A stretch of DNA of 64,000 nt from the NCBI RefSeq assembly GCF_018613935.1, contig NZ_JAGGPF010000001.1, forward strand, positions 496,001-560,000, written 5' to 3'. Every line of letters starts with the position of its first letter. The stretch's first letter is position 1. Origin of the DNA: Agromyces sp. ISL-38 (GTDB lineage: Bacteria; Actinomycetota; Actinomycetes; Actinomycetales; Microbacteriaceae). Shown piece by piece: positions 7,114 to 50,984 of the stretch. The notes under the pieces were generated by a model that had not been told where the DNA came from, ran no database searches, and saw only the letters and a program-made list of their open reading frames with translations. The translations under genes and the position numbers were made by a program.

Positions 7114-8609
7114 CCGACGACCCGACTGTGTCGCTCGGGTCGGACGACGACCTCGAGACCGTCAGCCTCAGCGCCGACGTCGTCGTGGTCGGCGGCGGAG
7201 TCGCGGGTCTCGTGGCCGCGCTCGAGTGCGCCAAGGTCGGGCTGCACGTCACGCTGCTCGAACGGCGCGAGGAGGTCGGCGGATGCGTCGGGCGCGTCGA
7301 GCTCGACGGCCTCACGCTCGACAGCGGCGCCGAGTCCTTCGCGACCCGCGGCGGCTCGGTCGAAGAGCTCCTCGGCTCGCTCGGCCTCACGGGCGACATC
7401 GAGCGTCCGAACCCGGCAGGCGCGTGGCTCGCCATGCCCGGCTCGAACGGCGACCTGACGGCAGCGCCCCTGCCACGCACGGGCGTGCTCGGCATCCCCG
7501 CGAACCCCCTCGGCGACGACGTGCGGCGCATCATCGGGTGGGGCGGTGCGATCCGCGCGTATGCCGACCGGCTCATGCCCATCGTTCGCATCGGCCGCGC
7601 CCACAGCCTCGGACAGCTCGTGCGCACGCGCATGGGGCAAGCCGTGCTCGACCGGCTCGTCACCCCGATCTCGGCCGGCGTGTACTCGGCCGACCCCGAC
7701 GATCTCGATCTCGATGTCGTGGCACCCGGACTCAACGAGGCGATGACCCGCGCCGGTTCGCTCTCGGGCGGCGTCGGCGAGCTCGTCGAGGCGCGCAAGG
7801 CCGGGAGCGCGGTGCTGGGACTTCGCGGAGGCATGCACCGCCTCGTCGACGCGCTGCGGCGCGAGCTCGACCGGTTCGGCGTGACGGTGGTCGTCTTCGC
7901 CGAGGTGAACGGTCTCTCCCGATCGCACACCGCTGCACCCGAGTGGCGCGTCACCGCGACCACCCCCGCGGCCGAGCTCCTCGTCGATGCCCGCTACGTC
8001 GTGCTCGCCGCCCCGGCGCAGACGTCGCGCCGCCTGCTCGGCGACGCCGTCGAAGGATGGGCGGATGCCGCGAGCTGGCCTGCCGCGGCATCCGTCGAAC
8101 TCGTGACCCTCGTGCTCGACGCACCCGCGCTCGACGCCGCACCGCGCGGAACCGGCGTGCTCGTGGCATCCGGATCCCCCGGCGTGACCGCGAAGGCGCT
8201 CACCCACGCGACCGCGAAATGGTCGTGGCTCGCCGAGGCAGCGGGCGGGCGGCACGTCGTGCGCCTCTCGTACGGCCGGGCAGGCGAGCCCAACCCGCTC
8301 GACGGCTTGGGCGACGACGAGGTGGCGCGGCTCGCGCTCGCCGACGCGGCAGCGCTGCTCGGCGTTCCCCTCGACGAGACCATGCTGAGGGCCTCGGCGC
8401 GCACCGCGTGGCGCGACGCGCTCTCACACGCGGCGATCGGCCAGCGAGATCGGGTGCGCGCACTCGACGAGGCACTCGCCGCAGAACCCGGCATCGAGGC
8501 GACCGGCTCATGGGTCTCTGGCACCGGCCTGGCGTCGGTGATCCCGCACGCGCTCGCGGCTGCGCGCCGCATCCGGCACGACGCCGTGCACCCCGGCGAC
8601 ATCGCATAG
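7110..8609 (+). CDS. cgoX: Coproporphyrinogen III oxidase (HemY-type flavoprotein)
   Basis: A 499-residue FAD enzyme of the protoporphyrinogen oxidase (HemY) family. In Gram-positive bacteria that also have HemQ it oxidises coproporphyrinogen III to coproporphyrin III. The dinucleotide motif VVVGGGVAGLVAALECAK is at about residues 25-42 with LLERREEVGGCVGRVELDG after it. The substrate-domain signatures LTLDSGAESFATRG, RLVTPISAGVYSADPDDL and the C-terminal WVSGTGLASVIPHALAAAR are present. ATG at 7110 overlaps the hemE stop (ATGA). HemQ and HemH in the same region support the coproporphyrin-dependent branch. Confidence 0.93.
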   Translation: MTDDPTVSLGSDDDLETVSLSADVVVVGGGVAGLVAALECAKVGLHVTLLERREEVGGCVGRVELDGLTLDSGAESFATRGGSVEELLGSLGLTGDIERPNPAGAWLAMPGSNGDLTAAPLPRTGVLGIPANPLGDDVRRIIGWGGAIRAYADRLMPIVRIGRAHSLGQLVRTRMGQAVLDRLVTPISAGVYSADPDDLDLDVVAPGLNEAMTRAGSLSGGVGELVEARKAGSAVLGLRGGMHRLVDALRRELDRFGVTVVVFAEVNGLSRSHTAAPEWRVTATTPAAELLVDARYVVLAAPAQTSRRLLGDAVEGWADAASWPAAASVELVTLVLDAPALDAAPRGTGVLVASGSPGVTAKALTHATAKWSWLAEAAGGRHVVRLSYGRAGEPNPLDGLGDDEVARLALADAAALLGVPLDETMLRASARTAWRDALSHAAIGQRDRVRALDEALAAEPGIEATGSWVSGTGLASVIPHALAAARRIRHDAVHPGDIA

Positions 8610-8638
8610 CCCGAGGGGAATATTGCGGCGCAACCCCC

Positions 8639-8666
8639 TTGCGCGCCGCGGCTCGGGGTCTACTCT
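8639..8666 (+). promoter_or_regulatory. Probable promoter for the envelope gene trio
   Basis: TTGCGC (8639-8644) and TACTCT (8661-8666) are spaced 16 bp and would start transcription near 8673, about 25 nt before the ATG at 8698. It gives the 8698-9836 genes their own promoter inside the heme region. Confidence 0.5.
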
Positions 8667-8697
8667 GGTTAGACGCCTACATGGAATGGGGTTCCAC

Positions 8698-9129
8698 ATG
8701 AAGGGCAAGATCCTCTTCGTCGTCGGGCTTGGGGTCGGCTACGTGCTCGGCACGCGAGCGGGCCGAGAACGCTACGAGCAGATCCGCAAGGGCGCGGAGA
8801 AGATCTGGAACACGCCGGCGGTGCAAGAGACCGTGGGCACGGCCAAAGAGTTCGCCATGTCGCGGGTGGGCGACCTCAGCGACACCGTGCTCGACAATGT
8901 GAAGTCGTTCGTCAGCACCGTCACGAAGGGCGAGAGCGGGGCGAAGGGGTCGGCCACGAAGCCCAAGGCATCGGGCACCGGCAAGAAGGAGTCCTCGGGG
9001 TCATCTGGGCCCACGAGGGTCGGCGACGAGCCGACGGGCGGTCCGGGCGCCACCGGCGAGAAAGCCAAGCCCAAGACGGTGAAACCCGCGACCACGCCGC
9101 GCGGCTCCACCGCGGCATCCGACTCCTGA
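8698..9129 (+). CDS. YtxH-like small membrane-associated protein
   Basis: A 143-residue protein with one N-terminal hydrophobic glycine-rich segment (KILFVVGLGVGYVLGTRAGR, residues 3-22) followed by YEQIRKGAEKIW. This start is typical of YtxH-like and actinobacterial general-stress membrane proteins. The rest is an amphipathic helix and then a disordered Lys/Gly/Ser/Pro-rich tail. ATG 8698 was chosen because it lies directly before the membrane segment; 8686 in the same frame is possible. It heads a run with a holin-superfamily protein and a DUF3618 protein, a trio that recurs in actinobacteria and is thought to act at the envelope. Confidence 0.7.
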   Translation: MKGKILFVVGLGVGYVLGTRAGRERYEQIRKGAEKIWNTPAVQETVGTAKEFAMSRVGDLSDTVLDNVKSFVSTVTKGESGAKGSATKPKASGTGKKESSGSSGPTRVGDEPTGGPGATGEKAKPKTVKPATTPRGSTAASDS

Positions 9130-9151
9130 TCGCGCGGAAGGTGACCACGCG

Positions 9152-9858: not shown

Positions 9859-10539
9859 ATGCCCACGACTGCCGCAGCCCCCGCGCAGCCCGCGGTCGCC
9901 CAGACCGCGGTCGCCCGGGTCGCCGCGGCCGTTCGCGCCGACATCCTGAGCGGCGCGCTCGCGCCCGGCTCGCCCTTGCGCGAGGAATCCGCCGCCGAGC
10001 ACTACGCGGTGTCGCGACACACCGTGCGAGCCGCCTTCCAGCGCCTCGTGGCCGAGCGGCTCGCGGTCGCCGAGCCGTACCGCGGGGTGCGCGTGACGAG
10101 CTTCGACCGCGACCAGGTGATCGCGCTGCAGCAGTTGCGCGCAGCGCTCGAGGTGGAGGCGGTGCGCATCGCCGGGGAGCGTTTCGGAGCGGAGTGGCCC
10201 GAGTCGGCGCTCGCGCCCGCCCGCGACGCGCTCGGCCGCCTCGACGCGATCAGCGCACGCGAGGCGCGCGGCGAGCCCGTCGACTGGCTCGAGGTGGAGC
10301 GCATCCACGCCGACTTCCACCGGGCGCTCGTCGCGGCATCCGCGAGCCCCCGCATCATCGAGACGCACACCGCACTCGGCAGCGAACTGCTGCTGTTCCT
10401 GCTGCACGTGCGCCCGCACTACACGCTCGGGAGCCTCATCGCCGAGCATCGCGCCCTGCTCGACGAGCTGCCCGCCCGCGGCCCGTCGGCCCTGCGCGAA
10501 CACCTCGAGCACTCGACGCGATTGCTCGTCGACGGCTGA
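9859..10539 (+). CDS. GntR family transcriptional regulator (FCD type)
   Basis: A 226-residue regulator with an N-terminal winged helix (VRADILSGALAPGSPLREESAAEHYAVSRHTVRAAFQRLVAERL) and a helical C-terminal ligand domain of the FadR/FCD class (RIHADFHRALVAASASPRIIETH). The ATG at 9859 is preferred; another in frame at 9817 overlaps the previous gene. It lies 38 nt before a methyltransferase gene on the same strand and could regulate it. The effector is not deducible. Confidence 0.85.
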   Translation: MPTTAAAPAQPAVAQTAVARVAAAVRADILSGALAPGSPLREESAAEHYAVSRHTVRAAFQRLVAERLAVAEPYRGVRVTSFDRDQVIALQQLRAALEVEAVRIAGERFGAEWPESALAPARDALGRLDAISAREARGEPVDWLEVERIHADFHRALVAASASPRIIETHTALGSELLLFLLHVRPHYTLGSLIAEHRALLDELPARGPSALREHLEHSTRLLVDG

Positions 10540-10577
10540 TCGCGGCACCCGCCCGCGTGCACGGAAGGGAGCGACTC

Positions 10578-11696
10578 ATGTCCGATGATTCGAATGAGGA
10601 GGGCCAGGGCGACGCCGTCAGCGACTTCGTCGGCCGGGTGTTCGCCTCGGCGCTCGGCGCGCTCGAGATTCTCAGCATCTATCTCGGCGTTCGACTCGGC
10701 TGGTACCGGGCGCTCGCCGAGGCCGGGCAGCTCAGCTCGACCGAGCTCGCCCGGCGCACCGCGACCCAGGAGCGCTACGCACGGGAGTGGCTCGAACAGC
10801 AGGCGGTGAGCGGCATCCTCACGGTCGAGGAGACGGATGCCGCGGATGCCGCACCCGTCGCCGCATCCGACCGCCGCTTCTCACTGCCGGCAGCCCACGC
10901 GGAGGTGCTGACCGACGGCACCTCGCTCGACTACTTCGCCCCGTTCGTGCGCATGTTCGCCGCCTCAGCGGTCCAACTACCGCAGCTCCTCGACGCGTAT
11001 CGCGCCGGGGGCGGCGTCTCGTGGCAGCAACTCGGCGCCGACGCCCACGAGTCACAGGGCGATCAGAACCGGCCGTGGTTCGAGAAACGACTCGCACCGG
11101 CACTTGCGTCGGTGGACTCCCTGCACCAGGTGCTGTCCCGTCCTGGCGCACACATCGCCGATGTCGGCTGCGGCCACGGCTGGTCGACGCTCGCCCTCGC
11201 CCGCGCCTATCCCGACGCGCGCGTCGAGGGCTTCGACGTCGATCAGCCGTCGATCGAGGCGGCTCGCCGACACGCCACCGAGGCGGGGCTCGGGGATCAT
11301 GTCAGGTTCCACCTCGTCGGCGGTGAGGAGCTCGCCGCGGAGGGCCGTTTCGACGCCGCGTTCGTGTTCGAGGCCGTGCACGACATGCCGTATCCCGTCG
11401 AGGTGCTCGCAGCGATTCGCCGGGCGGTGCGCGACGACGGCGAGGTCGTGATCATGGACGAGGCCGTCGCCGAGCGATTCGCCCCGGACGGCGACGAGAT
11501 CGAGCGCCTCATGTATGGTTTCAGCCTCTTCGTCTGCCTACCCGACAGTCTCTCGAGCCCGGGCTCCGTGGGCACCGGCACGGTGATGCGCCAGTCGACG
11601 CTCGAGGGCTACGCGCTGGAGGCGGGCTTCTCCGGCATCGAGGAGCTGCCGATCGAGGGGTTCGCGTTCTTCCGCTTCACGCGGCTCGTGCGCTGA
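10578..11696 (+). CDS. SAM-dependent methyltransferase with N-terminal winged helix
   Basis: A 372-residue protein. Residues about 20-110 form a winged-helix dimerisation region (LGWYRALAEAGQLSSTELARRT), as in small-molecule O-methyltransferases. Residues about 190-300 form a class I methyltransferase core: motif I HIADVGCGHGWSTLALA, acidic motif VEGFDVD, and motif II/III FDAAFVFEAVHDM and VLAAIRRAVRDDGEVVIMDE. GGAAGGGAG precedes the ATG. The substrate is unknown. Position between GntR and the hemQ operon does not prove a porphyrin substrate. Confidence 0.88.
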   Translation: MSDDSNEEGQGDAVSDFVGRVFASALGALEILSIYLGVRLGWYRALAEAGQLSSTELARRTATQERYAREWLEQQAVSGILTVEETDAADAAPVAASDRRFSLPAAHAEVLTDGTSLDYFAPFVRMFAASAVQLPQLLDAYRAGGGVSWQQLGADAHESQGDQNRPWFEKRLAPALASVDSLHQVLSRPGAHIADVGCGHGWSTLALARAYPDARVEGFDVDQPSIEAARRHATEAGLGDHVRFHLVGGEELAAEGRFDAAFVFEAVHDMPYPVEVLAAIRRAVRDDGEVVIMDEAVAERFAPDGDEIERLMYGFSLFVCLPDSLSSPGSVGTGTVMRQSTLEGYALEAGFSGIEELPIEGFAFFRFTRLVR

Positions 11697-46924: not shown

Positions 46925-47176
46925 GAGCCGGTTACGACGGCTCGCGCGTGCGCGCGACGCCGGCATCGTCGAGGGACCGCGCGTGCTCGCGCACGGCATG
47001 GTGAGCATGACCGCGGGCCAGACGAGCGGACTCCCTCGGCCGGGTGCGCGACGGGTTCGCCGCGGACTTCGTGATCATGCGAGGCCGGCCGTGGCGCGAC
47101 ATCCGCGAGCTCGACACGTCCGGCATCGTCGCAGTCGTCTCCCGCGGTCGCGTGGTCGCCGGCGCGCTGCCCTGAC
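46925..47176 (+). pseudogene. Amidohydrolase remnant with internal deletion
   Basis: The frame reads ARARDAGIVEGPRVLAHGMV, a piece of the middle of imidazolonepropionase-like amidohydrolases. After about 47020 another frame gives GRVRDGFAADFVIMRGRPWR, DIRELDTSGIVAVVSRGRVV and AGALP with stop at 47174-47176, the typical C-terminus of the same family. The region between the two (metal-binding core) is missing. Confidence 0.7.
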
Positions 47177-47228
47177 GATCGACCGGCCCAGCACGCTGAC
47201 CTCTGGCAGCGGTTCACGATCGAGCGCC

Positions 47229-47282
47229 GAGCAGGGCGCGCGTGCCACCCACTTGCGCTAGGAGGTGCTGCGCAACGGCTGA
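47229..47282 (+). pseudogene. Decayed copy of a RibD_C-like 3' end
   Basis: This stretch resembles 46862-46918, the end of the intact gene: GAGCAGGGCGCGC, then GCCAC-CACTTGCG. It has an in-frame TAG after the Leu-Arg codons and a later TGA. It is a scrap of a duplicated reductase gene. Confidence 0.5.
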
Positions 47283-47292
47283 CCTGCGGCTC

Positions 47293-47298
47293 TATGCT
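47293..47298 (+). promoter_or_regulatory. Leaderless promoter -10 box for the 47305 operon
   Basis: TATGCT ends 6 nt before the GTG at 47305. Confidence 0.5.
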
Positions 47299-47304
47299 TG
47301 CCCC

Positions 47305-47991
47305 GTGGGGGAACCGCAACCGACTGAGCAGCAGGCTGTGCCGAAACGGCGATTCCGCTGGGTGCGCGTAGCGGCCGACCGAGTGCCCACGAAGTGGGTC
47401 GCAGGAATCGGCATCGGCGTGTTCCTGGCCGCGACGGCCGCATTCGGCGGGCTCGAGACGGTGGAGGCCGTGAGCCTGCCCGAGCTCAGTGCCGGCGAGG
47501 AACATCGCAACGACCAGTTGGCGGTCACCGTGAAACGCGCGGTCCTCATCGATGAGCTGCCCTTGGCCGGTGTGACGGTCGAACCCGGTGAGCGGGTTCT
47601 CGCCCTGATCGTCGACGCCGAGAACCGCTGGGACGAGCCCTTGCCCACGACACGCGGCTACAGCCTGTCGTCGACGGTCGCGCTCGCCGACCATCCTGAG
47701 GTGGAACCCCAGGGGATCTCCCGCTATGACGACACGACGGCGAACCCGTGGTTGCAGCCGGGGGTGCTCGCGACGATCGTGCTCGCCTGGGTGGTACCCG
47801 CCGATCGCCACGCTGGCGGCGACGACGTGCGCGTCGTGCTGAACGACGAGACGCTGATGACCGGAACTGCGGTGATCAGCGGGCAGTACTGGGACGATCC
47901 GGTGCCCGCCGCGATAGTGACCCTCGACATCGAGGACGTCGGAGCGGGCCGCGATGCCGCGGAGCCTGATCCTGGAGCGGTCGGCGAATGA
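47305..47991 (+). CDS. Unknown membrane-anchored extracytoplasmic protein (operon gene 1)
   Basis: A 228-residue protein. A cytoplasmic basic N-terminus, one membrane helix at about residues 33-53 (VAGIGIGVFLAATAAFGGLE) and an extracytoplasmic beta-rich domain. The domain (LAVTVKRAVLIDELPLAGVT VEPGERVLALIVDAENRW in two steps) resembles DUF4352/immunoglobulin-like cohesion domains of lipoproteins, but I cannot name it. It is the first of three genes with 4-nt overlaps whose proteins share this layout. Confidence 0.7.
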   Translation: MGEPQPTEQQAVPKRRFRWVRVAADRVPTKWVAGIGIGVFLAATAAFGGLETVEAVSLPELSAGEEHRNDQLAVTVKRAVLIDELPLAGVTVEPGERVLALIVDAENRWDEPLPTTRGYSLSSTVALADHPEVEPQGISRYDDTTANPWLQPGVLATIVLAWVVPADRHAGGDDVRVVLNDETLMTGTAVISGQYWDDPVPAAIVTLDIEDVGAGRDAAEPDPGAVGE

Positions 47992-48536
47992 GGAGATGGG
48001 CCGCCGCGCTCGGCGGCACGGCGCTCGTGGTCGCGGCATGGGGCATCGCCCTCGTGACTCCCGAGGACGCAGAGGCCGAGCGATCGTTCGTCGTGCCGGT
48101 CGAGATCGGCGACCGCGGCGAGGGGCGGAATCTGGCGGTGACCGTCACGGGAATTCGAGCTGCGGATGCGGCGACGATCGACGGCTGGGTTGCGGAGGGT
48201 CCCTGGCTCATCGTCGACCTCGAGGCTGCGGCGGTGCAGAGCGAACTCCGCGCACAGCTCTCGCACGCCACCCTCTCGGTCGACGGCCGAACGTTTCGAG
48301 CGAGCGAGCGGCCGCCCGACTCACTGTTCCGCTCGGCACTCGCGGTCGGCGTGCCGCGATCGGGAAGCATCGCGTTCGAATTGCCCGAGGAGGTGTTCGG
48401 CGATGACCTCGCCGTGCTGAGTCTGGGCCTGAGCGCAGATCCGAGGCTCGACTCCCTTATCGAACTGCACCTCGAACCGAGCAGCCTCGATCGCGTCGAG
48501 GAGGCTGAACTCATGTCGAGCGGGTGGGCGCGGTGA
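47988..48536 (+). CDS. Unknown membrane-anchored extracytoplasmic protein (operon gene 2)
   Basis: A 182-residue protein with an uncleaved-looking N-terminal helix (WAAALGGTALVVAAWGIALV, residues 4-23) and an outside domain: EGRNLAVTVTGIRAADAATI, GPWLIVDLEAAAVQSELRAQ. This mirrors gene 1, suggesting an old duplication. ATG 47988 overlaps the stop of gene 1. Function unknown. Confidence 0.65.
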   Translation: MRRWAAALGGTALVVAAWGIALVTPEDAEAERSFVVPVEIGDRGEGRNLAVTVTGIRAADAATIDGWVAEGPWLIVDLEAAAVQSELRAQLSHATLSVDGRTFRASERPPDSLFRSALAVGVPRSGSIAFELPEEVFGDDLAVLSLGLSADPRLDSLIELHLEPSSLDRVEEAELMSSGWAR

Positions 48537-49081
48537 CGGTCGATGCAGTCATGAACCGGCGCGGGTGGTGGCGGCGCAACGCGCTCCCGCTCGTGGGGGT
48601 CGCGGTGTTGCTCCCGGCGACGTTCGGCGTGATCGCCTGGAATGAATGGAACGAATACTTCTCTGGGCAGCCGACGCAGGCGGTCGTCGCACCGCCGGGG
48701 GCCTCTGTCGAGTTCGAGGGCGCCGTCTGGGGACCCGCCGAGATCGAGGTCATGGATCCAGGTGCAGTGCTCGAGGCTCCCGCCGGTTCGCGGGTCGTCA
48801 TGGTCGCCGTGCCGGTCGATCCGGGTACGGATGCCGTGACCTGCCTGCCACCAACCCTGCGGGAGACCACAGGAGCCCAACGCGAATGGCAGCATGCCAC
48901 CTTCGAGATCGGGTGGTCGCCGGAGCCCGACGAGCTCGGCTCATGCGCCCTGACCGGGACGGACCCCTTCACGATCACCGTCGCGTTCCTCGTCCCGCTC
49001 GACGCCACCGGGCCGCTCGCTGTCGAGCTCATCTCGCCAGAGGCGCTTCCCAGATTCGCCCGACTGCTCGTCGAGCCGTGA
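48533..49081 (+). CDS. Unknown membrane-anchored extracytoplasmic protein (operon gene 3)
   Basis: A 182-residue protein: N-terminal basic residues, helix ALPLVGVAVLLPATFGVIAW at about 14-33, then an outside beta domain (FEGAVWGPAEIEVMDP, GSRVVMVAVPVDPG, two cysteines in TCLPPTL and GSCALTG that could form a disulfide). GTG 48533 overlaps the stop of gene 2; 48524 is an alternative. The last 141 bp overlap the 3' end of the convergent membrane-protein gene. Function unknown. Confidence 0.65.
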   Translation: MTVDAVMNRRGWWRRNALPLVGVAVLLPATFGVIAWNEWNEYFSGQPTQAVVAPPGASVEFEGAVWGPAEIEVMDPGAVLEAPAGSRVVMVAVPVDPGTDAVTCLPPTLRETTGAQREWQHATFEIGWSPEPDELGSCALTGTDPFTITVAFLVPLDATGPLAVELISPEALPRFARLLVEP

Positions 49082-50305
49082 CGACTCGGATGCGGAGGCT
49101 GGAACGAGTCGCGCGAGGGTCGCGTCGTAAGCACTGGCAACGAGACTCACGCGCAGCGGCTCGACGATGAGCGGCACGAGGAGCAGGACCACCGCGTCGG
49201 CGACTGCCCAGAAGGTGTAGAGGTCCTGCGGGCCGACGAGGCGCGTGACCCAGATGCGCAGCATCTGCTCGAACCCGAGCACGATCGTGTACAAGAGGAC
49301 GTACCCGCCGACCAGCACCGGCCCGGCGCGCCACATCAGCACCACGGCTCGGCCGATGGGGCGGAATCGCGCGGCGAAATCCCACCACACGTCGCCGAGC
49401 CGTCGTCGCACCGCTTCGGGCAGGCTCGAGAACCGGCGGCGGGCTCGATCGACGAGCACACCGCCGAGGCGTGGCGCCTGTGGCGCGACCGCCTGCCCGT
49501 AGATGACCCCAGCGATGGTGAGCCAGGCGAGCGGCAGCAGGATGATGCCGCCGGCCTCGCCCAGCAGCCACTCGACCGCCTCCCAGAGCCATGCCACGGG
49601 TTCGACCCGGCTTGTGACCCAGGCTCGGACATCGGCGAGCCAGACCATCGCCTGCCGCGACGCCACCCACGCCGACACCCGGCCGAGCGCCTCCGAGATG
49701 AGGATCACGGTGAGGAAGACCCAGACCGCCTCGAGGTAGACCGCTCCGATCGCCGACCACTTCGGCAGCCGAGAGCGGTACCGGTTCCACGCCCATCGGC
49801 CGGCGAAGGCAACCACGATGAGCGCGATGGTGGCCGGCTCGAACATGAGCTGGTCGATGGTGCCTTCGGTGGAGACGGTCTCACCCGCGAAGATTGCAGC
49901 CGCGTTGACCCCCTGCTGCACTTCGAGCCCACGGGCGAGGTAGGCGAACCAGTCGTCGCGAAGGTAGCCCCAGGCTGCGTAGAAGGCGAAGAAGGGCAGG
50001 ATGCCGCCGAGCACGGCGTCGACGAAGGCGCGCCGTCGTGCCACCGCATCGCCGGGAAGTGGCGCGATGGTGCCGAGCCGGGTCATCCCGTCGCGCAGCA
50101 CGAGGAACATCGCCACGAAGCTGACGAGGCGGGCGAGGATGGCCAGGGGCAGGAGCAACTGGCCGCCGAGGGCCGAGAACGCGCCCACGAATCCGGCCAG
50201 CTCGATCACGAGGTACCGCACGAGGATGCCCCCGAGGAACCACGCGAGCAGCGCCGGCCAGTGCGCCAGCAGCAGTCGGCCGGTCATCGCGATCACGGTG
50301 AGCAC
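48941..50305 (-). CDS. Multi-pass membrane protein of unknown function
   Basis: A 454-residue protein with about 8-9 membrane helices (for example LAWFLGGILVRYLVIELAGF, LLLPLAILARLVSFVAMFLV, AVYLEAVWVFLTVILISEAL, VLVGGYVLLYTIVLGFEQML). The C-terminal 55 residues are charged and probably cytoplasmic; about 46 of them are encoded antisense to operon gene 3. GTG 50305 follows TACCGT by 6 nt. No transporter motif is recognised. Convergence with the three anchored proteins suggests, but does not prove, related envelope roles. Confidence 0.7.
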   Translation of the reverse strand: MLTVIAMTGRLLLAHWPALLAWFLGGILVRYLVIELAGFVGAFSALGGQLLLPLAILARLVSFVAMFLVLRDGMTRLGTIAPLPGDAVARRRAFVDAVLGGILPFFAFYAAWGYLRDDWFAYLARGLEVQQGVNAAAIFAGETVSTEGTIDQLMFEPATIALIVVAFAGRWAWNRYRSRLPKWSAIGAVYLEAVWVFLTVILISEALGRVSAWVASRQAMVWLADVRAWVTSRVEPVAWLWEAVEWLLGEAGGIILLPLAWLTIAGVIYGQAVAPQAPRLGGVLVDRARRRFSSLPEAVRRRLGDVWWDFAARFRPIGRAVVLMWRAGPVLVGGYVLLYTIVLGFEQMLRIWVTRLVGPQDLYTFWAVADAVVLLLVPLIVEPLRVSLVASAYDATLARLVPASASESSRLDEQSGESGKRLWRDELDSERPGGVERDEERDGDREGVRPGQGA

Positions 50306-50311
50306 GAGACC

Positions 50312-50317
50312 ACGGTA
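50312..50317 (-). promoter_or_regulatory. Leaderless promoter -10 box for the membrane-protein gene
   Basis: TACCGT on the minus strand ends 6 nt before the GTG at 50305. Confidence 0.45.
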
Positions 50318-50403
50318 GCGGTTGCGCACAACGCCGCGTGGCGGCATCCGCTCGCCGACTGTGGCGACCTGCCAATGATGAATCATCGACCACGAATCGG
50401 GCA

Positions 50404-50409
50404 TACAGT
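50404..50409 (+). promoter_or_regulatory. Leaderless promoter -10 box for the thioesterase gene
   Basis: TACAGT ends 8 nt before the ATG at 50418. Confidence 0.45.
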
Positions 50410-50417
50410 CGTGGACT

Positions 50418-50984
50418 ATGCACATGTTCTTCCGCACGCTGCTCCACGTGCTGTTCCTCTCGCGCCGCAAGCCCGACCTCGACCATTACGAGGTCGCGCG
50501 CACGAACTTCATCACGCTGCCGACCGACCTCGACATCAACCGCCACATGAACAACGGCGTGTACTTCTCGATCATGGATGTCGCGCGCTTCGACATGCTC
50601 GTGCGCAGCGGCGTCTTCGGCATCATGCGGGCCAAGAACTGGTATCCGGTGGTCGTGAGCGAGACGATCACGTTCCGCAAGTCGCTGAGCCTGTGGCAGC
50701 GGTTCACCATCGAGTCGCGCATCCTCGGCTTCGACGACAAGGCGGTCTACTGCGAGCAGCGGTTCGTGCGCCACGGCCACGATGGGAAGCCCGAGATCTA
50801 TGCGCAGGGGTTCATCCGCGCGCGGTTCCTGCGCAAGGAGGGCGGCACGGTCCCTGTGCCCGAACTCGTCGAAGCGTTCGGCACGCCGCCCATGAGCGAC
50901 GAACTGCCCGAGTGGATCGAACGATGGGGCACGGATGTCGCGCTGCCCGCGACGCGCGCCGAGGCGCCGTCGGTCTGGCACTGA
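50418..50984 (+). CDS. Acyl-CoA thioesterase-like hotdog protein
   Basis: A 188-residue hotdog-fold (4HBT/THEM6-like) protein. LPTDLDINRHMNNGVYFSIM at about 34-53 carries the catalytic-type Asp and the HMNN helix start, followed by SETITFRKSLSLWQRF and CEQRFVRHG. It probably hydrolyses an acyl-CoA. It stands alone on a short leaderless transcript. Confidence 0.85.
   Translation: MHMFFRTLLHVLFLSRRKPDLDHYEVARTNFITLPTDLDINRHMNNGVYFSIMDVARFDMLVRSGVFGIMRAKNWYPVVVSETITFRKSLSLWQRFTIESRILGFDDKAVYCEQRFVRHGHDGKPEIYAQGFIRARFLRKEGGTVPVPELVEAFGTPPMSDELPEWIERWGTDVALPATRAEAPSVWH

Follow-up and report, generated by a model that had tools for sequence, protein, structure and literature searches.

A convergent four-gene set for predicted envelope proteins, kept in Actinomycetota and Alphaproteobacteria

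Gene layout and conservation of the set

The window analysed here, 64,000 nucleotides (nt) of a contig of Agromyces sp. ISL-38 (NZ_JAGGPF010000001.1, positions 496,001 to 560,000), carries three consecutive genes, A, B and C, and on the opposite strand a fourth gene, D, which runs head-on into C (Table 1). A and B are joined by a 4-nt ATGA overlap, and B and C by a 4-nt GTGA overlap. A preliminary description made from the sequence had proposed a three-gene operon whose last gene overlaps the convergent gene by 141 base pairs (bp). A re-check of the sequence confirmed the operon with its coordinates, strands and 4-nt junctions, as well as the 141-bp overlap, in which 46 residues of D and its stop codon are antisense to C. 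The closest named relative among the fetched loci, Agromyces albus DSM 15934 (L007), supports 48533 as the start of C: its D is 93% identical, and its C begins with ATG at the same 4-nt overlap.

Table 1. Features of the four-gene locus (positions in the window)
Feature	Position	Strand	Start and length	Description
Gene A	47305-47991	+	GTG, 228 aa	N-terminal membrane segment and DUF4352-like domain, probably extracytoplasmic
Gene B	47988-48536	+	ATG, 182 aa	N-terminal signal or anchor and DUF4352-like domain
Gene C	48533-49081	+	GTG, 182 aa	membrane helix and telokin-like beta sandwich (predicted)
Gene D	48941-50305	-	GTG, 454 aa	polytopic membrane protein, orphan family
C/D antisense overlap	48941-49081		141 bp	D stop TGA is the complement of the C Ser137 codon TCA
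-10-like element TATGCT	47293-47298	+		probable leaderless promoter of A (TANNNT test)
-10-like element TACCGT	50312-50317	-		probable leaderless promoter of D (TANNNT test)

The same head-on order of the four genes is found in two phyla, and the genes therefore probably work together in the cell envelope. In a contig scan of genomes with D of the window as seed, 55 loci were obtained; they come from Agromyces, Microbacterium, Cryobacterium, Subtercola, Herbiconiux, Glaciihabitans, Devosia, Labrys, Rhizobium and other Alphaproteobacteria. With profiles grown from the four window proteins, A-B-C are found on one strand and D converges on them from the other in 53 of the 55. Of the two exceptions, L039 is cut by a contig end, and L061, on a Rhizobium plasmid, is a decayed copy that lacks C, has D split in two and retains only parts of A and B; both were left out of the 53-locus counts, and L002-L006 were dropped as duplicates. 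Since the contig scan used Agromyces sequence, a profile of D was also run against 794 sampled genomes. It matched 7 of 396 Actinomycetota and 6 of 398 Pseudomonadota genomes, and all 13 have A-B-C convergent on D (two of them, G450 and G781, are the scan loci L042 and L060). The A-B-C operon and its link to D exceed chance. Conservation of the operon, named in the preliminary description as a check, is thus borne out, and so is the convergence with D; D as a separate neighbour is not, because both phyla keep it together with A-B-C as a set of four.

The profiles of the smaller proteins give a similar picture. A B profile yields seven matches in the same 396 actinomycetotal genomes, six of them in genomes with D; the remaining one, in G384, is a DUF4352-like protein that stands alone, with no C or D nearby. 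G053, which has D, is missed by the B profile at the search threshold, yet holds a B of 34.5 bits. The C match is weak in L081 (25.5 bits) and L082 (18.0 bits). Evolutionary distances of A, B, C and D over the 53 loci correlate at 0.91-0.97, a correlation that shared ancestry alone raises. Identity of D between the two phyla is 24-27%, and a quick D tree (L084 and L089 left out as duplicates) groups the sequences mostly by family; its deep branches are long and its joins weak, so that transfers between the phyla are not dated. The count of new cassettes likewise leaves out the duplicates L071, L084 and L089. Among outer neighbours, clustered as reading frames from 69 loci, few clusters reach both phyla, and by eye these are ABC-transporter ATPases, major facilitator superfamily (MFS) proteins, argJ and similar common genes. 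No other neighbour shared across the phyla was noticed, although the largest cluster (468 frames, including D) is a chained mixture that could hide a weakly conserved partner.

Predicted structures of the four proteins

Each of A, B and C has a single N-terminal hydrophobic stretch in hydropathy plots (residues 32-50 in A, 5-23 in B and 17-35 in C), and C has an additional weak hydrophobic peak within its beta domain. The net charge over the 30 N-terminal residues is +4 in A and +3 in C, but -1 in B, which starts with MRR. The sequence AEA/ER in B may be a signal-peptidase site, and B may accordingly be secreted rather than anchored. The common plan first proposed for the three proteins, a basic N-terminus followed by a membrane helix and an outside beta domain, is supported, with these qualifications for B. 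A surface location of all three, as proposed, is probable.

In profile comparison by hhalign, A matches B with a probability of 95.3 (E 2e-8) and C with a probability of 78.8 (E 1.6e-5). DUF4352 (PF11611) is touched by 8 of 55 members of the A family (best E 1.5e-4) and by 17 of 55 members of the B family (best E 1.5e-3). The window proteins themselves are more remote: A and B have no Pfam family at E up to 1, C has TPR_21 alone at E 0.06, and none of the three reaches the curated cut-off of DUF4352. NCBIfam holds no family for the four window proteins, and when the profiles of the four families were searched against PDB sequences, no noteworthy match appeared, the best being 4les at E 0.12 for A. 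The original remark that no family is recognised is thus correct for the four window proteins at curated cut-offs, but weak DUF4352 matches occur among the relatives of A and B, and the fold predicted for C is of this type.

The AlphaFold2 model of C (predicted local distance difference test, pLDDT, 91.0; predicted template modelling score, pTM, 0.79) consists of a helix at residues 9-44 and a beta sandwich of the immunoglobulin (Ig)-like kind. It is most similar to B. subtilis YxkC (9a4z, an integrative model; Z 11.6, 122 aligned residues, 2.7 Å), followed by M. tuberculosis MPT63 (1lmi; Z 10.7, 121 aligned, 3.1 Å), B. subtilis YjhA (3cfu; Z 10.5, 123 aligned, 2.8 Å) and B. subtilis YcdA (4r4g; Z 10.2, 118 aligned, 3.0 Å), with five telokin-type chains in all at Z 11.6-9.2 over 115-123 residues. 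Foldseek of the same model places MPT63 first (E 6.8e-4). C is therefore predicted to have a telokin-like fold, and for A and B we infer the same fold from profile similarity. The three domains, described at first as unknown, each follow an N-terminal membrane segment and appear to have diverged from a single telokin-like (DUF4352-type) domain, as suggested by the profile comparison, the DUF4352 touches and the predicted fold of C. By the profile scores A and B are paralogous, and the paralogy of C is weaker. A cysteine of C, Cys138, is kept in all 56 family members. The telokin-like/DUF4352 proteins YjhA, YcdA, YxkC and MPT63 have the same fold as predicted for C, and weak profile matches to this family occur among the relatives of A and B. 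Unlike in those proteins, the domain is present here in three copies per operon, with N-terminal membrane segments and a convergent polytopic partner, and the window proteins stay below the curated cut-offs. A literature search found no paper covering YxkC and DacA together.

The AlphaFold2 model of D (pLDDT 85.0, pTM 0.81) has a good core, while its last 25 residues, 430-454, are unstructured with pLDDT below 50. From the model, hydropathy and loop charges we infer about eight membrane helices with the C-terminus inside. In the second-look list of structural matches, human CTL1 (9qu3; Z 10.9, 237 aligned residues, 5.3 Å, 6% identity) comes first and yeast PNS1 (9f63; Z 10.2, 233 aligned, 5.9 Å, 10% identity) next; these are the sole chains spanning most of D, the following one having Z 7.6 over 63 residues. 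Helical matches at Z below 13 may reflect a common arrangement of helices, and the resemblance of the predicted D fold to eukaryotic CTL/SLC44 proteins, the closest found, is to be taken as a lead only. CTL/SLC44 proteins have 10 helices against about eight predicted in D. A listing of matches for 52 D sequences at E up to 0.1 names 12 families, and Choline_transpo (PF04515) is not one of them. One account of the CTL fold describes membrane helices around amphipathic helices, calls the fold unusual and considers that it is perhaps not a transporter (PMC13160678). An identity of D with EI24/CysZ (PF07264) was rejected, as hhalign against 29 EI24 sequences gave a probability of 1.2.

Probable promoters, distribution and the 3' overlap

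A TANNNT element followed after 5-9 nt by an in-frame start codon is found upstream of A in 29 of 35 actinomycetotal loci (mean of shuffled controls 0.7) and upstream of D in 32 of 35 (0.8). The test accepted any in-frame start within 60 nt, both in the data and in the controls, which were shuffled versions of these stretches. The A start obtained in this way differed from the automatically picked one at four loci, and L030, L039 and all later loci are outside this count. The excess over the shuffles suggests that both arms are probably leaderless with the same geometry, and it supports the starts at 47305 and 50305. The leaderless promoter first proposed for A is thus supported and has a probable counterpart at D. 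A sigma-70 consensus scan of the region found nothing. A general-stress sigma promoter was considered for the Alphaproteobacteria and rejected, since its motif, of the GGAAC-GTT type, occurs in none of 18 stretches upstream of A and none of 17 upstream of D.

The overlap of C and D ranges from -63 to 141 bp in 35 actinomycetotal loci, 28 of them above zero, and from -22 to 26 bp in 18 alphaproteobacterial loci, 5 of them above zero; coding overlap is thus present in 33 of 53 loci and absent from 20. This layout might be an excludon-like switch, in which terminator-less convergent mRNAs are antisense to each other so that expression alternates between A-B-C and D. A review (PMC7154746) names convergent genes that lack a terminator as an excludon layout, no intrinsic terminator-like site is found at 47000-50700, the convergent order holds in all 53 loci, and the coding overlap is frequent in Actinomycetota. 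The promoters of A and D, however, share one geometry, the overlap is found in only 5 of the 18 alphaproteobacterial loci, and the order persists there without any coding overlap, as in L086 and L087 with C-D gaps of 208 and 217 bp. The locus shares convergent genes without a recognisable terminator with excludons and long convergent overlaps, but differs from these in that two phyla retain the order and not the overlap. A switch of this kind is considered improbable.

The four-gene set is accessory and comes or goes as a block. D is present in 7 of 60 Agromyces genomes, while the adjoining thioesterase gene (50418-50984) is present in all 41 sampled. In six of the seven carriers D adjoins that thioesterase. 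On the A side, prpC or ribD follows in five of the six, at a distance of up to about 400 bp in four of them and of 1.3 kb in G032, and the other flank differs in G031. At L028, about 1.3 kb of extra sequence lies between A (8405-9133) and ribD (10477-11100). Among 15 fetched Agromyces genomes without D, prpC or ribD lies within 180 bp of the thioesterase in 10; in the other five the distance is 366 bp, 901 bp, 2.2 kb or 3.2 kb, or no prpC is nearby. The closeness of these flanking genes in genomes without D indicates that the four genes were gained or lost as one block. G018 (L088, L138) has a divergent set 34 kb from the usual site, with an A 34% identical to that of the window, next to 87% and 73% identity for its prpC and thioesterase; on sequence comparison, this suggests replacement or transfer. 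A site common to Agromyces and Microbacterium is not claimed, because the thioesterase homologue in 12 Microbacterium loci (47-52% identity) lies on the D strand and that in Agromyces on the opposite strand.

D is also held by 41 plasmid records, 18 of them predicted to be conjugative, and the two that were opened show the same gene order; one set lies beside IS66 genes on a pSymB and another near conjugation genes on an Agrobacterium plasmid. Such plasmids, together with the patchy presence in Agromyces and the divergent copy of G018 at another place, would fit a mobile immunity-type cassette, for superinfection exclusion or bacteriocin immunity, carried on plasmids and islands. A PADLOC scan of eight proteins from two loci, however, gave a single sub-threshold match of A to RmrA (E 0.09), D of the window has no match in phage records and no confirmed relative in viral contigs, and the tree of window D follows families for the most part. 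An immunity function is accordingly about as improbable as the excludon-like switch. As a separate observation, a mere 62-residue piece of D was matched on the Sinorhizobium garamanticum plasmid NZ_CP120375.1 (406994-407182), apparently a decaying copy.

The antisense part of D was proposed to be an example of overprinting, with conservation of the tail as a check and its absence from orthologues as a refutation. The outcome goes against the proposal, as 20 of the 53 orthologous loci have no overlap of C and D, and overprinting as a functional novelty is not supported, the phases also differing between clades: the 24 overlaps of at least 30 bp fall into the three phases as 10, 11 and 3. In G004 the overlap is 153 bp. 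A second, divergent type of all four genes occurs in five Microbacterium loci of the M. oxydans group (L034, L035, L036, L037 and L051), where C and D overlap by 114-117 bp and the phase is that of the window. In this phase a stop in D requires TTA, CTA or TCA in C, which account for 11 of 3775 codons in 14 window genes; the chance of 46 open codons is 0.87 with this codon usage, and the existence of the tail is therefore no signal. According to one survey, long overlaps tend to be real only if convergent, and 54 of 178 convergent overlaps longer than 60 bp are possibly real, most of them kept in very close species alone (PMC2478687).

Two observations might nevertheless speak for a functional overprinted domain in the tail. 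In all six Agromyces of this phase (the window, L007, L011, L028, L077 and L136; two of the six are close relatives), D stops at the same TCA serine codon of C beside the invariant cysteine, although TCA accounts for only 5 of 172 serine codons in the 14 genes. The retention of this rare codon suggests that selection acts on where D ends, though not on a conserved tail. In four of five comparisons, fourfold-degenerate sites of C are also slightly more alike inside the overlap than elsewhere in the gene, among them 0.57 versus 0.52 in five Agromyces, 0.54 versus 0.45 in ten Microbacterium and 0.65 versus 0.59 in five Microbacterium, and same-size ends of B used as controls differ less (0.54/0.52, 0.51/0.48 and 0.62/0.60; differences of 0.03 or less), while ends of A go in the opposite direction. 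The pairs inside a group are, however, not independent, and the closest pair, window and A. albus, is reversed (0.85 versus 0.87). With the variable phase, the loci without overlap and the unstructured end of the D model, a functional overprinted domain is very improbable.

The set as a proposed envelope module

That A-B-C and D are unrelated neighbours held together by chance or hitch-hiking hardly comes into consideration: their location on opposite strands is not what operon logic predicts, but their order is the same in two phyla in spite of the divergence of D, and no other shared neighbour was noticed among the clustered frames.

We favour, with moderate confidence, the reading that the four genes work as a single unit, an envelope complex encoded by an accessory module. 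It is carried by the co-occurrence of the genes, their fixed convergent order, the paralogy of A and B (weaker for C), the predicted fold of C and the conserved promoters; a physical complex, co-expression and ligand handling are what the reading would add. D would be the membrane-embedded core. The N-terminal segments of A, B and C would tether these proteins to the outer side of the cytoplasmic membrane, and the three would assemble on D as extracytoplasmic subunits, where they might bind or gate a ligand; our guess is a ligand- or lipid-handling core with three lids. Both arms would be expressed together from the matching leaderless promoters. Ligand handling or transport by D itself is a possibility to be viewed with doubt. 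Still more speculative is a version in which D is built like CTL proteins, as a threefold pseudosymmetric bundle, with A, B and C each providing one Ig-like lid subunit per third; the set would then be an obligate 'convergent operon', whose 3' overlap, leaderless starts and translational coupling fix a ratio of one core to three different lids.

Several results weigh against the envelope complex or its details. Convergent transcription could reduce rather than help co-expression. The predicted fold covers C alone of the three smaller proteins, with A and B placed by profile similarity; the hhalign match of B to C is weak (probability 40.6, E 2.9e-4), and DUF4352 is absent from the families listed for 56 C sequences. 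D belongs to no recognised family, and Foldseek against PDB and viral models gave no match at E up to 0.001, which is a further difference from CTL/SLC44. Segment profile comparison detected no internal (threefold) repeats in D, the scores being within those of column-shuffled controls, and the CTL lead gains no further support from sequence repeats or from a link to EI24/CysZ.

It is rare for genes on opposite strands to stay together as a set across phyla, and this one is a clean case of functional linkage of a kind that operon-based methods would miss. A literature search aimed at the set found no published description, a statement limited to that search. The set joins three DUF4352-type domains, which have no known role, to one orphan membrane protein, and it is a small, deletable unit, convenient for laboratory work, for asking what such surface domains do. 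The CTL resemblance, if true, would make D a bacterial model of this fold, the function of which is in dispute (PMC13160678). If the core with three lids were also true, this would be a genetically tractable bacterial relative of CTL-type folds with known partners.

A minor observation concerns the DNA between ribD and A. The stretch 47020-47175 on the forward strand resembles the last 51 codons of an amidohydrolase gene and would thus be the remnant of a gene bordering the set; its matches to Amidohydro_3 (E 0.019) and Amidohydro_1 (E 0.033) are below the cut-off, and both align to the very end of the profile.

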